In this document: one piece after another, positions 23,009 through 30,117 of the stretch
How the letters are laid out: each line of letters starts with the position of its first letter
Numbering within the stretch: position 1 is the stretch's first letter
Assembly: GCA_016841065.1 (NCBI GenBank)
Contig: JAENZW010000005.1
Location: 1 to 52,735 of the forward strand
Length of the DNA stretch: 52,735 nucleotides
Direction: 5' to 3'
Source of the DNA: Actinomycetota bacterium
Lineage (GTDB): Bacteria; Actinomycetota; Coriobacteriia; Anaerosomatales; JAENZW01
The notes under the pieces: model-generated
The model's database searches: none
The model's input: the letters and a program-made list of their open reading frames with translations, nothing else
What the model was told of the DNA's origin: nothing
Program-made: the position numbers and the translations under genes

Positions 23009-25033
23009 GTGTACGTCACACCCCGTCTTGCGTCGGTGCTCAAAGCGATCGCGGCAGTGCTTGTCGTCATGCTTCTCGCGCTGCTAGGCGTCGGCGTCTA
23101 CCTCTATCGCGTATCCCTGAGCCTTCCGGACATCGATCTCGCCGCCAGCAGCCAAGAGACCGCACGCACGTCAATCGTGTACGCGGCGGACGGTTCCGTC
23201 CTCGCCGAATGGCATGGCGAGGAGGATCGAACTGTGGTCGCCCTCGAGAACATGCCGATCCACCTTCGCGATGCAGTAGTGTCCATCGAAGACGAGCGCT
23301 TCTACACGCACCGGGGTGTAGACTCCAGGGCCATTCTGCGGGCGTTTCGCGCGAACGCCGAAGACGGAGGCATCTCACAGGGTGGTAGCACCATCACCCA
23401 GCAGCTCGTCAAGATTCTGTGCACCGACGGGAAACGGACCCTGGAACGCAAGGTTCGAGAAGCGCTGCTTGCGTTCCAGATCGAAGCGCGCACGGACAAG
23501 GACAAGGTGCTTGAGACGTATCTGAACACCGTGTACTTCGGGCACGGCTCGTATGGTGTCGAGAGTGCGGCCCGGACGCTCTTCGGCACGTCGGCGTCAC
23601 AGTTGGATCTAGCAGAGAGCGCTATGCTCGCCGGTCTGATTCAGTCACCGGGCCACTTCTCGCCGATAGATGAGCCCGATGCAGCCATCGAGCGGCGTGC
23701 CACGGTCCTGTCCAAGATGCGTGAGCTCGGCTACATCACGGAGGCTGAAGAGGTTGCCGCTCGCGGTCAGGAACTGGCGATTGCTCCGCCACGCGAAGTC
23801 CCAGAGGTCGCGCCCTACTTCGTTGAATGGGTCAAACAGGATCTCATCGAGAGGCTCGGCGCTGATACCGTTTTCCGGGGCGGACTGAGGGTCTACACGA
23901 CGCTCGATCCCGTGCTTCAGGATGCTGCCGAGCGAGCGGTCCGCTCGCAACTGCCCGATCCGGCGGATCCCGAGTGCGCGCTTGTCGCGGTGGACCACAC
24001 CAACGGTCAAGTAGTGGCGATGGTGGGGGGCCGGGATTTCCATGAGAACCAGTACAACCTGGCTTCGCAGGGTCGCCGGCAGCCCGGCTCGGCATTCAAA
24101 CCGTTTGTTCTCGTTCGCGCACTCGAGGAGGGAATCAGGCCGGAGCAGCAATTCGATGCATCGCCGTACTCCGTGCGCGTGAAGGACGGCGTCTGGAATG
24201 TGCAGAACTACGAGAACGCCTTCACCGATGGGCGGCTTACCCTCAGCGCGGCGACCAACTGGTCCGTGAACGCCGTCTATGCGCGTCTCATCATGCGTGT
24301 CGGCGCCGAGGACGTCGTCGAGACTGCACAGAGAATGGGAATCGAGAGCCCGCTCGAACCCAACCCCGCCATCGCCCTCGGTGGCCTCAGCCAGGGAGTC
24401 ACGCCGCTCGAGATGGCGTCAGCATACGGAACGATCGCGTCGGGAGGCTATCGCAACTTTCCGACCGGCTTGCTGCGCGTGACCGATGATCGGGGCACGG
24501 TCGTCTACGAGCCGGATAGCACCGCGAACCAGGCTATCTCGAAGACGGTGGCAGTGCAGGCCTCTCTAATGCTTCATGATGTAGTTGAGAACGGAACCGC
24601 ACAGGAAGCTCGGATTCCGGGTACGTGGGTGGCTGGCAAGACCGGGACCACGCAGTCCTATCGTGACGCCTGGTTCGTCGGCTACACAGACCGCATATCG
24701 TGCGCAGTATGGGTCGGCTATCGCGACGGACAAGTGGAGATGACCGACGTCCACGGGATCCGGGTGACAGGTGGAAGCATCCCGGCCAAGACGTGGAAGG
24801 TGTTCATGACGCGTGCACTCAAGGCTCAGCGCGCTCCGCTGACACCTGTCGAACCCCCTGACCCGGTTGCCTTGGGCGATGAGAATGGCGAACCGCCCGT
24901 CATCAGCTCACAGCAGGTTCTCGTTCAGATCTGCGCTGAAACGAAGCTGAAGGCCACGAAGCGTTGTCCCGACGTTGTAGAGATGTACCTTGACCCAACG
25001 CTCGTGCCCGAAGGAACATGCGAACGCCACTAG
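23009..25033 (+). CDS. Class A penicillin-binding protein (PBP1A type)
   Basis: A 674-residue bifunctional peptidoglycan synthase. A short N-terminal tail and one membrane anchor (residues ~8-32) are followed by the glycosyltransferase domain with EDERFYTHRGVD near residue 94 and GGSTITQQLVK. The transpeptidase domain has the active Ser361 in GSAFKPF, SVN, and KTGTT at residue 544. The last ~60 residues are proline-rich; no PASTA domain is present. GTG 23009 is chosen because the anchor begins there; its ribosome site (a run of Gs) is weak. TGCTACCAT at 22887-22895 may be the promoter. Confidence 0.92.
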   Translation: MYVTPRLASVLKAIAAVLVVMLLALLGVGVYLYRVSLSLPDIDLAASSQETARTSIVYAADGSVLAEWHGEEDRTVVALENMPIHLRDAVVSIEDERFYTHRGVDSRAILRAFRANAEDGGISQGGSTITQQLVKILCTDGKRTLERKVREALLAFQIEARTDKDKVLETYLNTVYFGHGSYGVESAARTLFGTSASQLDLAESAMLAGLIQSPGHFSPIDEPDAAIERRATVLSKMRELGYITEAEEVAARGQELAIAPPREVPEVAPYFVEWVKQDLIERLGADTVFRGGLRVYTTLDPVLQDAAERAVRSQLPDPADPECALVAVDHTNGQVVAMVGGRDFHENQYNLASQGRRQPGSAFKPFVLVRALEEGIRPEQQFDASPYSVRVKDGVWNVQNYENAFTDGRLTLSAATNWSVNAVYARLIMRVGAEDVVETAQRMGIESPLEPNPAIALGGLSQGVTPLEMASAYGTIASGGYRNFPTGLLRVTDDRGTVVYEPDSTANQAISKTVAVQASLMLHDVVENGTAQEARIPGTWVAGKTGTTQSYRDAWFVGYTDRISCAVWVGYRDGQVEMTDVHGIRVTGGSIPAKTWKVFMTRALKAQRAPLTPVEPPDPVALGDENGEPPVISSQQVLVQICAETKLKATKRCPDVVEMYLDPTLVPEGTCERH

Positions 25034-25044
25034 GAGGACCGGAG

Positions 25045-25350
25045 TTGGACCATTACGCCACCCTGCAGGTCTCACGCGACGCGGAGCCGGAAGTGATAGA
25101 GAAGGCGTACAAGGCGCTCTGTCTGAAGTACCATCCCGACGTCGTGAATCAAGCCGAGAGAACAAGCGCCACTCGCAAGATGCAGCGCATCAACGTGGCC
25201 TACGGCGTGCTGAAGAATTCGCGTTCGCGGCAGCAGTACGACAAGACGCTGTCCTTTGAGTCTGCGGGCAGCGCCTGGGATGTCTTCCTGGATAAGGGAC
25301 TACTCGGGATGCTGTTCGACAAACTTGCATCCGATCAGCATCGTGCGTAG
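25045..25350 (+). CDS. Minimal J-domain (DnaJ-like) protein
   Basis: A 101-residue protein, almost entirely a J domain. It begins MDHYATLQVSRDAEPEVIE and has the essential HPD at residues 30-32, then helix III ending SRQQYDKTL. It would stimulate a DnaK-type chaperone. It lacks the G/F and zinc regions of DnaJ. TTG 25045 is chosen because AGGAGG at 25032-25037 is seven bases upstream and the J-domain consensus starts there; an ATG at 25018 lies inside the PBP gene. Possibly co-transcribed with the PBP gene. Confidence 0.85.
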   Translation: MDHYATLQVSRDAEPEVIEKAYKALCLKYHPDVVNQAERTSATRKMQRINVAYGVLKNSRSRQQYDKTLSFESAGSAWDVFLDKGLLGMLFDKLASDQHRA

Positions 25351-25361
25351 CGCCGACCGGT

Positions 25362-25703
25362 CTAGTCTGCTGCCACGCGGTCGTTGAGCTTGTTCTGAAC
25401 GGCTCTCAATATCGCCGGATAGGACACGGCTCCGTCGTAGAGCGGCATTCCATCAATCACCGTAACCGGGTACAGCAGCCCGCGTCGTTCGATCTCATCG
25501 ATCACGTCAGCATGCTTTTCGCGGACGTTCGTGTCCGACGTGTTGTGATAGGTGATCGATGCGGCGTCGCCAAACCTGCGCTCCATCTCCTGGTGAATGA
25601 TGCCGGTGATCTCCTCCGGAGACCAGGAGGGACCTCAACCCCCACTGAAGCATGCGGTCTGCGCTGGGAGATCGAATACCTCAACTGCGATTGAATCGCT
25701 CAT
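25362..25703 (-). CDS. Probable selenoprotein with thioredoxin-like fold, in-frame UGA at codon 23
   Basis: Read through an in-frame TGA (25637-25635), this gives 113 residues. The N terminus IAVEVFDLPAQTACFSGG leads to U23-GPSWSPEEI, then an open frame to TAG. The beta-alpha-beta-alpha-beta-beta order and the cis-Pro-like YPVTVIDG resemble small thioredoxin-fold proteins (ArsD, YuzD). Cys18-x4-Sec23 would be the redox pair; ArsD has Cys in the comparable CGPS motif. ATG 25703 has GGAGGGAA upstream and overlaps the ferredoxin stop (TGATG). The first ATG after the TGA (25586) has CAGGAG directly abutting it, so no usable spacing. A hairpin right after the UGA could be a SECIS. Pseudogene or sequence error are alternatives. 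Confidence 0.75.
25603..25626 (-). promoter_or_regulatory. SECIS-like hairpin downstream of the in-frame UGA
   Basis: On the minus strand a hairpin starts nine bases after the TGA. CUGGU pairs with ACCGG (with one U-G), and CUCC pairs with GGAG. A three-base AUC bulge separates the helices, and the loop is GGA. The apical loop begins 18 bases after the UGA and its first base is G. As I recall the bacterial SECIS model, it asks for a loop of 3-14 bases, 16-37 bases from the UGA, with G in the first two loop positions; this hairpin fits. It was folded by eye. Confidence 0.5.
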
Positions 25704-25915
25704 CAGTTGTTCCCTCCGAATTGCACGGCCCCGCCAGCGCATACGCGAACGCACACGGCGCAACCGCGACATAGTTCGTCAATAACATAGTAGCCGTTCG
25801 CTCCTGGATACGCTCCGCCTTCGGCCGGCTGAATCGCTCCCGTCGGGCATACCCTTCTCGAGGGGCAGGCCGGCGAACGATCACAAGAATCGTTGTCAAT
25901 GGCAAGTCCGGTCAT
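25703..25915 (-). CDS. Small ferredoxin-like 4Fe-4S protein coupled to the selenoprotein
   Basis: A 70-residue iron-sulfur protein with seven cysteines. Cys49-x2-Cys52-x2-Cys55, with Cys23 followed by Pro, gives one standard 4Fe-4S site. The remaining Cys11, Cys17 and Cys59 would give only three ligands for a second site, and Cys59 is followed by Ala rather than Pro. GGAGGAA sits seven bases before ATG 25915. The stop overlaps the next start in TGATG, so the two products are likely made together. It could pass electrons to the Cys/Sec centre; that is inference. The CDRSPACPSRRVCP pattern looks like a specific small family rather than a generic ferredoxin. Confidence 0.85.
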   Translation of the reverse strand: MTGLAIDNDSCDRSPACPSRRVCPTGAIQPAEGGAYPGANGYYVIDELCRGCAVCVRVCAGGAVQFGGNN

Positions 25916-25969: not shown

Positions 25970-25999
25970 ATGATACCCCACAGGGTATTGTTCAGGCAA
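25970..25999 (-). promoter_or_regulatory. Promoter of the ferredoxin-selenoprotein operon
   Basis: On the minus strand TTGCCT (25999-25994) is followed after 18 bases by TATCAT (25975-25970). These are the same two hexamers as at the tRNA-Pro promoter. Transcription would start near 25962, about 46 bases before the ferredoxin ATG. A perfect dyad overlaps the spacer and -10. Confidence 0.6.
25973..25988. promoter_or_regulatory. Inverted repeat ATACCC-CACA-GGGTAT, CsoR/CstR-like operator
   Basis: A perfect 6-bp dyad with a four-base centre, AT-rich at its ends and G/C-rich inside. This is the general form of operators bound by CsoR/RcnR/CstR-family repressors of copper, nickel or persulfide response (from memory). 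It lies between the -35 and -10 of the ferredoxin operon, the right place for repression. No CsoR-family gene is in the window. Confidence 0.5.
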
Positions 26000-27721: not shown

Positions 27722-27891
27722 CCCCTTCGCGTAGGAATGACAGCGCGAGCGGCGAAATCCATGTGTGTAGGAGCTGTTCGGCCCGTTGTCTGTATGAGCG
27801 GGTTCTTATATCGTAGGCGAGTATGGGCGGGCATGTGCCGCCTTTCACGTGTGGGCTGTGTCGGCCTCGGAATGAGCAAGGAGAGATGCGA

Positions 27892-30117
27892 ATGCCGAAG
27901 ATCTCCCTGGCCGGGTTCAAAGACCCGGTCCGGCGGCCGCGGTACATCATCTGGACAGGTGTTCTTGTCCTGGGGTTGGCCGCGTTCGTCATCGTCGCAC
28001 TAGGGGTGACCTCGACGTACTGGTTCTGCGCCAATGTCTGTCACAAGGTGCAGGACGACACAATCATCGCGTACGACAGATCCTCTCACTCCGAGGTCTC
28101 ATGCATGGCGTGTCACATGCCAGTGAATGCCGACCCGATCACGTTCGTGATTCACAAGGCCGGCGCGCTTGGCGAGCTCTACCTCACGGCCACGAACAAA
28201 TTCGAGCTGCCGCTGAATGAGGGCTCCCACCTGGCTATGAACGGCCATCACATGGGATCGAAGCAGTGCACCCAATGCCACTCGACCAACCGCGAGATCA
28301 CGCCGAGTCCGGGCATCATCATCGATCACGCGGTTCACGAGGAGAACAAGGTTCACTGCACGATGTGTCACAACCGAGTGGCGCATCCTGAGGACTTTGA
28401 GCTCACGCTGACGCACCCGAAGACGGGCGAGCCGAACGAGCCACATCCGGTGTTCATGTCGATGACGGCTTGCTTCCGCTGCCACGGTCTGGCGAAGGAC
28501 GCGATGGCGCCGGGAACGTGCGCCGCCTGCCATCCCGCCGACTTCGAGCTCAAGCCCCCGAGCCACTTCGAGACGGCGTTCTATCCTTCGGGACACGCCG
28601 AGATGGCGCTTGAGGAGATCAAGCGTGTTGAAGAGGCGGTAGCTGAGGCCGAGGGCGGCCATGGCGAAGGCGAGGGTGGCGAGTCGGAGGAACCGGCTGA
28701 AGAGGGTTCCGAGTCCGAAGAGGCCACGTCCAGCAGTTCCTTGGGGCTCGCTTCGGCCTATGCCGAAGAGGCCGCCACGCCCGTGACGACAGAGGCAACC
28801 GGCGAGCCGGCCTTGATTGCGGAGCCCGAGGGTGAGGCAACCGCCGAAGAGGAGTCGCACGATACCGATGAAGAGGGCGGCAGCCACGAGATTCCTGAGT
28901 GGGCGGAGCTGCTTCCGGCCGTTGGTGAGATCAACTACTGCTCGACGTGTCACCTCGACACGTTCTGCACGAACTGCCACGGCATGGAGATGCCGCACCC
29001 GACCGCCTTCATTGAGAAGGAGCATCCCGAGGACGCGATTCGGATGCCGGAGAAGTGCGAGCTGTGTCACCAGCCGGCAAAGACATTCTTCTGTGAGAGC
29101 TGTCACCACGGCGAGAAGTCTGGTGGTTGGACCTACGACAAGAAGGAAGTCTGGCAGACTCAGCATGCCAAGGCCGTGAGCCAGAACGGCGTCACGGCGT
29201 GTCTTGAGGCTTGCCACGAGATGAAGTTCTGCCAGGACTGTCACACCAAGCTCAATCCGATTCCGACGTCTCACAAGGGCAAGACATGGCTGCACAACCA
29301 GACGACGGTTTCCAAGCCTCCAAATGAGAAGGCCGCACCGTCGGCGCTGCACGCTGTGAACGCCCAGAAGCAGATTCAGGCGTGCGAAGTCTGTCACGGC
29401 GATGGCGGCGCCAACTCCAAGTTCTGCAAGGGCTGCCACGAGTACGAGATGCCGCATCCCACCGACTTCGTCGGCTTCCACTCGAAGAGCGGGAAGAAGG
29501 ATGCAGCCCAGTGTCAGTTCTGCCACCAGTTCAAGGAGGTATGCAGCAACTGTCACCACGTCGGAGCGAGCACCAGCAAGGCGTGGATCTCCGTCCATGG
29601 CGGTGTCGTCAACGACAGCGGCTCTGGCGGATGCCTTGAGAAGTGTCACAAGCAGGACTTCTGTGTCGATTGCCATACGACGCGCAAGGTGGTTCCGGCA
29701 TCCCACAAGAAGTCCGGCTGGACCAAGCGCGCCAAGGCTGACATCCCGGCCGTGCACACGGCCACGTTTGGCGATCAACCTGACAGCTGTCTCTACTGTC
29801 ACGGTGCGAACGGGCCGAACGACAACAAGTTCTGCAGTGGCTGTCACGGGCTTGACATGCCTCACGCCGACGACTACAAGGACACACACAAGGCTGGCTT
29901 CAACGACAAGAAGCTGAAGAAAGCCACATGCAATACGTGTCATGCGGCGACGTTCTGCAACTCGTGTCACCATCCCGAGTCGACGGCGAAGAAGCCGTGG
30001 GTGAACGATCATCCTCGCGTGGTGAAGGACACGGGCGCAGCTCCGTGCTTCGAGTGTCACGAGGAAACGTACTGCTCCTACTGTCACGTTCGCGAAGCGT
30101 CGAAGTACATCGACTAG
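27892..30117 (+). CDS. Membrane-anchored 24-haem cytochrome: NapC-like head plus three six-haem repeats
   Basis: A 741-residue quinol-linked type of cytochrome. One membrane anchor (residues ~18-43) is followed by six haem sites in NapC/NirT style, beginning with CANVCH (Cys46). Residues ~240-340 are a Glu/Gly/Ser/Ala-rich acidic linker. Residues ~348-741 hold three tandem modules of about 110-130 residues, each with six haem sites, sharing motifs such as CxGCHxxxMPHxxD and FCxDCHT. In total I count 21 CxxCH and three CX3CH (CANVCH, CLEACH, CLEKCH). ATG 27892 has AGGAGA seven bases upstream. It would carry electrons from the quinone pool outward. Confidence 0.92.
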   Translation: MPKISLAGFKDPVRRPRYIIWTGVLVLGLAAFVIVALGVTSTYWFCANVCHKVQDDTIIAYDRSSHSEVSCMACHMPVNADPITFVIHKAGALGELYLTATNKFELPLNEGSHLAMNGHHMGSKQCTQCHSTNREITPSPGIIIDHAVHEENKVHCTMCHNRVAHPEDFELTLTHPKTGEPNEPHPVFMSMTACFRCHGLAKDAMAPGTCAACHPADFELKPPSHFETAFYPSGHAEMALEEIKRVEEAVAEAEGGHGEGEGGESEEPAEEGSESEEATSSSSLGLASAYAEEAATPVTTEATGEPALIAEPEGEATAEEESHDTDEEGGSHEIPEWAELLPAVGEINYCSTCHLDTFCTNCHGMEMPHPTAFIEKEHPEDAIRMPEKCELCHQPAKTFFCESCHHGEKSGGWTYDKKEVWQTQHAKAVSQNGVTACLEACHEMKFCQDCHTKLNPIPTSHKGKTWLHNQTTVSKPPNEKAAPSALHAVNAQKQIQACEVCHGDGGANSKFCKGCHEYEMPHPTDFVGFHSKSGKKDAAQCQFCHQFKEVCSNCHHVGASTSKAWISVHGGVVNDSGSGGCLEKCHKQDFCVDCHTTRKVVPASHKKSGWTKRAKADIPAVHTATFGDQPDSCLYCHGANGPNDNKFCSGCHGLDMPHADDYKDTHKAGFNDKKLKKATCNTCHAATFCNSCHHPESTAKKPWVNDHPRVVKDTGAAPCFECHEETYCSYCHVREASKYID
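28930..29290 (+). repeat. Six-haem module 1 of the 24-haem cytochrome
   Basis: Haem sites in order: CSTCH, CTNCH, CELCH, CESCH, CLEACH, CQDCH, ending near PTSHKGKTW. It aligns by eye with the next two modules. Confidence 0.75.
29380..29725 (+). repeat. Six-haem module 2 of the 24-haem cytochrome
   Basis: Haem sites in order: CEVCH, CKGCH, CQFCH, CSNCH, CLEKCH, CVDCH, ending near PASHKKSGW. The fifth site is CX3CH, as in module 1. Confidence 0.75.
29785..30117 (+). repeat. Six-haem module 3 of the 24-haem cytochrome
   Basis: Haem sites in order: CLYCH, CSGCH, CNTCH, CNSCH, CFECH, CSYCH. The fifth site is CX2CH rather than CX3CH, and the module ends the protein without the SHK tail. Confidence 0.75.

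Follow-up and report, generated by a model that had tools for sequence, protein, structure and literature searches.

The closest described relatives of the protein analyzed here belong to two families. One is DUF1462 (PF07315), represented by YuzD of Bacillus, SA0798 of Staphylococcus and the solved structure 1xg8; the active-site motif of the YuzD/SA0798-type proteins is CxxC. The other is the metallochaperone ArsD, which has a thioredoxin-like fold (3ktb, 3kgk) and binds As(III) through Cys12, Cys13, and Cys18. The window, that is, the whole stretch of 52,735 nucleotides that was analyzed (contig JAENZW010000005.1 of assembly GCA_016841065.1, from an Actinomycetota bacterium of the class Coriobacteriia, order Anaerosomatales), contains on the minus strand, at positions 25362-25703, a read-through gene for a protein of 113 amino acids. 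As judged from profile comparisons and a structure model, DUF1462 and ArsD are the families nearest to this protein, which is predicted to adopt the thioredoxin fold with a C-x4-U active site, where U is selenocysteine (Sec), residue 23.

The DUF1462 profile matches all 34 aligned members of the new family (E 0.01 or better in each case, 4.8e-10 at best); for the window protein itself, the match is marginal (25.3 against 25 bits). An ArsD profile matches 12 of the 34 members, and the window protein remains below the cut-off of the Pfam ArsD model (PF06953; 15.9 against 27 bits). The NCBIfam ArsD model (NF033727) likewise matches only below its cut-off, in 2 of 16 members (best E 0.0067), and the window protein has no match among the NCBIfam models. 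The structure model, for which Sec was replaced by Cys, is thioredoxin-like with a mean pLDDT of 90.6; confidence is low only around residues 11-30, drops below 50 at residues 19-21, and is least in the active-site loop. Its best neighbors among solved structures are 1xg8 of DUF1462 (TM 0.61) and, in second place, 3ktb of ArsD, with modest TM-scores (0.5-0.6). A Cys of 1xg8 aligns with the Sec of the new family, which differs from DUF1462 in the replacement of this Cys by Sec, in the C-x4-U spacing found instead of the CxxC motif, and in its ferredoxin operon. The likeness to the Cys-Gly-Pro-Ser motif of ArsD, which the initial annotation had pointed out, holds up: C-x4-C-G-P-S of the ArsD-type proteins of this phylum aligns without gaps with C-x4-U-G-P-S, so that Sec occupies the position of an ArsD cysteine. 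Among the As(III)-binding cysteines, only Cys13 (C18) and Cys18 (U23) have equivalents. Identification as ArsD proper was rejected given the sub-threshold profile scores and the absence of the third cysteine, Cys12; no ars operon was seen around the gene.

The read-through gene and its in-frame TGA

The minus-strand frame extends from the ATG at 25703-25701 to the TAG at 25364-25362 and is interrupted solely by the TGA at 25637-25635, which lies within the motif C18-F-S-G-G-U23-G-P-S-W. A Shine-Dalgarno sequence, GGAGG (25713-25717, minus strand), is located 9 nt before the ATG, which shares one base with the stop codon (TGA, 25705-25703) of the ferredoxin-like gene upstream. A short DnaJ-like ORF on the plus strand (25018-25350) is convergent with the gene. 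A search with the read-through protein detected it in 61 of the 69 genomes of the order, with a TGA inside each match. The initial annotation had inferred a continuous thioredoxin-fold frame across the TGA, with a ribosome site of its own and coupling to the ferredoxin gene, and had anticipated that automatic annotation would call only a C-terminal part of 74 residues; the coordinates and the homologs bear out each of these inferences, and standard gene calling indeed yields a 74-residue ORF that opens at ATG 25586.

The loci extracted from the order (63, of which 61 are non-redundant) come from about 36 genera, and all encode C-x4-U-G-P-[S/T/A]-W with the TGA at the identical codon, flanked by conserved C18, S20, G21, G22, G24, P25, and W27. 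The initial annotation had proposed to look for homologs with Cys or Sec at position 23: the Sec codon is aligned in 61/61 loci, and the ArsD-type Cys aligns to Sec. Sequencing error as the source of the TGA was rejected because the same TGA is present in 61 genomes. All copies found in the order are of the Sec form, and the close family yielded no Cys form, so that methods that depend on close Cys homologs could miss the family. Two more genomes of the class, from a different family, likewise carry the TGA, as do four distant subfamilies in other classes of the phylum, with the motifs CSGGUGPSW, CGFGUGSYG, CSGGGUGTVSW, and RGGGU[AR]P. The relatives at L007 and L008 are from Coriobacteriia metagenome assemblies. 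A plasmid search produced no matches, and the scan of named genomes, which used a single protein, could reach close relatives only.

Several other TGA-containing frames were noticed along the way. Genomes of family f54 encode divergent relatives (L203, L204, and L206) with the motifs CRGGGUAPPLSLEE or WRGGGURPSLSLEE, and in one of these, the partner Cys is lost, with W in its place. A separate thioredoxin-like ORF (L109 / L202, G623:C6), with a TGA before G-P in the region AGAGGUGPVCEPADCGP, shows a weak match to DUF1462 (E 0.0013) and is probably another uncatalogued Sec protein. A small thioredoxin-like frame with a TGA (L205, G418:C109), VVVVYSTLPSGUSSSGAAGGCG, is a possible further one.

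If the TGA were a true stop, the locus would comprise a pseudogene or two short ORFs, and only the 74-residue piece from ATG 25586, the one obtained by standard gene calling, would be made. However, neither the first strand nor the active site of the modelled fold is included in this piece, and the TGA is retained in 61/61 loci amid the conserved flanking residues, which makes such a reading highly improbable. The frame would also be open if UGA encoded one of the standard amino acids (Trp, Gly, or Cys) by way of a changed code or a suppressor tRNA, but the probability of this is negligible: 33 of the 61 homologs end in TGA, so that a changed genetic code is ruled out, the adjoining ferredoxin gene also has TGA as its stop, and the Sec machinery is present.

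With regard to this machinery, the initial annotation would have been refuted by a lack of sel genes. The source genome encodes tRNA-Sec (71.9 bits), SelA (503.9 bits), and SelD (375.3 bits; its gene contains a single in-frame TGA); only SelB was not found above the cut-off in this draft genome. The SelA match stops 15 bases from the contig end, inside selA, and the break makes an assembly gap the likely, albeit unproven, cause of the missing SelB. Across the order, SelB scores above the cut-off in 51/69 genomes. The selD gene (L105, G000:C60) itself encodes a selenoprotein, and the hairpin that follows its TGA has the same CC-GGA-GG apex as the SECIS of the present gene. In eight genomes that contain the gene (G005, G021, G024, G026, G034, G062, G066, and G068), SelB did not exceed its cut-off, and no tRNA-Sec scored higher than about 51 bits (true tRNA-Sec scores 65-75 bits); all these discordant genomes are drafts, 82-98% complete. 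Since selB and the tRNA-Sec gene are adjacent in G009 and G060, a single assembly gap could eliminate both, although this is not proven for the eight drafts. In G030 (99% complete), the gene, SelB above the cut-off and a true tRNA-Sec are all absent, as expected; in G011 and G053, tRNA-Sec is present and no copy of the gene was found. A long ORF located beside tRNA-Sec (L099, G000:C32, 6399-8057) was recognized by eye as YeeE/YedE-type transporter-like.

The predicted SECIS hairpin

The putative SECIS element, TGGTCTCC-GGA-GGAGATCA (25607-25625, minus strand), is a hairpin of 19 bases with 8 base pairs, including one G-U, and a GGA loop at 25617-25615; it starts nine bases past the TGA, and the distance from the UGA to the loop is 17 nt. 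The initial annotation had the loop and the spacing right and the stem one pair too long. Its proposed fit to the bacterial SECIS model stands as well, the loop, stem, and spacing all being within the bSECIS limits given in PMC13188914.

The strongest indications come from comparisons among the loci. Synonymous sites in codons +5 to +9 are nearly invariant (TCT 57/57, CCG 60/61, GAG 57/57, GAG 61/61, and ATC 60/60, counted over those of the 61 loci that have the consensus residue at the respective codon), and none of 2000 draws was as extreme at any of these five hairpin codons, whereas codons just outside the hairpin, e.g., Gly +1, Pro +2, and Thr +10, drift at synonymous sites. In a set of 25 distinct hairpins that represents all subfamilies, standard pairs make up 96.5% of the pair cells, and 18 changes affect both sides of a pair; these values were reached in none of 500 shuffles, and sliding of the partner strand reduced pairing to 58% or less. 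A caveat is that the 25 sequences were picked and anchored by hand and that kinship inflates the shuffle control. Neither the freezing of five codons nor a covarying hairpin is expected of a pseudogene, which counts further against a true stop. On this comparative sequence evidence, the hairpin is under selection at the RNA level. Folding energy was rejected as a line of evidence because the region is indistinguishable from shuffled sequences (z = -0.01 and -0.66); the isolated hairpin has an energy of -9.3 kcal/mol, and the predicted minimum for the window sequence is a different pairing (-14.1 vs -10.0 kcal/mol), which counts against the element.

Given the retention of the TGA across about 36 genera, the conservation of the coding sequence on both sides of it, the RNA-level selection on the hairpin, and the presence of tRNA-Sec, SelA, and SelD, no reading other than that of a selenoprotein with a bacterial SECIS fits, and the identity of the gene as a selenoprotein gene is nearly certain. 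The UGA at codon 23 would be decoded as Sec by tRNA-Sec and SelB under the direction of the hairpin, which begins nine bases after it. With its frozen synonymous sites, the hairpin represents a clean natural SECIS for the SelB of this lineage.

Ferredoxin partner, operator, and CsoR-family regulator

The gene upstream of the selenoprotein gene (25703-25915, minus strand) encodes a ferredoxin-like protein of 70 amino acids that is matched by Pfam Fer4 models below their cut-offs. Its cysteines are arranged in two groups, C-x5-C-x5-C-P and C-x2-C-x2-C-x3-C, so that the first group contains one cysteine less than that of a classical two-cluster ferredoxin. A ferredoxin-like gene is located directly upstream in 51/61 loci and is missing in about 10-12 of the 61; in the 49 loci that fit a strict pattern, the first cysteine group is invariant. 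A multihaem c-type cytochrome of 764 amino acids with many CxxCH motifs is encoded on the plus strand (27823-30117) a few genes from the operon.

The operon is preceded by a 16-bp palindrome, ATACCCTGTGGGGTAT (25973-25988, minus strand), a probable repressor operator that lies over the promoter (TTGCCT at 25999-25994 and TATCAT at 25975-25970, with an 18-nt spacer). In 60/61 loci of the order, the consensus palindrome ATACCC-N4-GGGTAT is present upstream of the operon or, where the ferredoxin gene was not found, of the selenoprotein gene itself; across the loci, a TTG is found upstream of the palindrome, and TAT(A/C)(A/C)T overlaps its right arm. Five genomes contain 5-7 such sites each, 28 in total, compared to 2 for a reversed control pattern. 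The additional sites are associated with genes for thioredoxin, a DsbD-type transmembrane protein, rhodanese, an ACR3-like transporter (in 3 of the 5 genomes; its best NCBIfam match is ACR3, with a score of 109.7 bits that falls short of the cut-off of 282.8 bits), and NAD synthetase. Membrane-anchored rhodanese genes at L150 and L215 begin at the operator, divergently from a long glucan-synthase-like gene.

The candidate repressor is a CsoR-family protein (PF02583) that is present in 64/69 genomes, mostly in a single copy, and in 28 of 31 regulator loci, the palindrome is found within about 1.5 kb. Copper-sensing CsoR has a histidine ligand that is lacking in CstR. In the present regulator, the two core cysteines are conserved and the position of the copper-ligand His is occupied by Ser or Ala, which points to a thiol-based sensor. 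The regulator probably senses reactive sulfur, although both the effector and the DNA binding are inferred. In the absence of binding data, co-regulation of these genes by the CsoR-family protein remains a likely inference; that the gene encodes a selenoprotein and belongs to this operon, under this operator, is very likely when taken as a single claim.

Possible functions and comparison with known systems

The composition of the operon and of the regulon suggests a scenario in which the CstR-like repressor would keep the operon silent as long as its cysteines are not modified by reactive sulfur species; once they are, the ferredoxin would donate electrons to the Cys/Sec pair, which, alongside the co-regulated thioredoxin, could reduce persulfides, polysulfides, or disulfides. 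Persulfide or disulfide reduction with ferredoxin as the donor is put forward as a tentative assignment that falls somewhat short of an even chance, the donor, the substrate, and the effector all being inferred. More doubtful is the specific version in which a ferredoxin dedicated to the system, whose first cluster site has three cysteines, feeds the Cys/Sec pair directly, without a ferredoxin:thioredoxin reductase or an NADPH-dependent reductase, and the system detoxifies persulfides under the control of a reactive-sulfur repressor.

Two other functions have to be considered for the selenoprotein. It could be a general, ferredoxin-linked selenoprotein thioredoxin with no tie to sulfur stress that is involved, for example, in iron-sulfur cluster repair. 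Such a role is compatible with the thioredoxin-like fold and the ferredoxin operon, and iron-sulfur proteins adjoin the YuzD genes in Bacillus. Nevertheless, the operator is shared by a small regulon beside a CstR-like repressor, which suggests a role induced under stress, and the general function appears rather unlikely. Alternatively, the protein might be an ArsD-like chaperone or reductase for arsenite or another soft metal(loid), which the CsoR-family repressor would sense via its three cysteines. This possibility draws on the second place of ArsD among the structural neighbors, the ArsD profile matches in 12/34 members, the C-x4-C-G-P-S alignment, and the ACR3-like transporter that has the operator in 3/5 genomes (itself below the ACR3 cut-off), but it is unlikely, considering that the vicinal Cys12 of ArsD is absent, that no ArsA was seen in the loci examined, and that the protein is partnered by a ferredoxin in a regulon with thioredoxin, rhodanese, and a DsbD-type protein. 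Reduction of persulfides or disulfides remains the preferred, albeit tentative, reading. The ferredoxin partner together with the operator offers a first functional lead for DUF1462-like proteins and connects selenium use, in a way that can be tested, with a possible defense against reactive sulfur.

The known thioredoxin-fold selenoproteins (SaoT, HUIPC-motif, Sec.1/Sec.2, and UGSC) are similar to the present one in that they are small redox proteins with Sec in an active-site loop. None of the 119 prokaryotic selenoprotein families catalogued in PMC13188914 (2026) uses the DUF1462/ArsD family or a C-x4-U-G-P-x-W motif, and literature searches that linked DUF1462, Coriobacteriia, or ArsD with selenium returned nothing relevant. 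Hence this is a selenoprotein family not yet catalogued, near-universal in its order, that standard annotation would cut before the active site; in the searchable literature, the ferredoxin partner and the regulon are not described for selenoproteins. On the regulatory side, the closest parallels are the CsoR/CstR regulons of TTHA1953 in Thermus and CstR in Staphylococcus, which share with the present system a two-Cys repressor without the copper-ligand His, a TAC...GTA promoter palindrome, and target genes that include those for thioredoxin and rhodanese; to these, the regulon described here adds a selenoprotein-ferredoxin operon.
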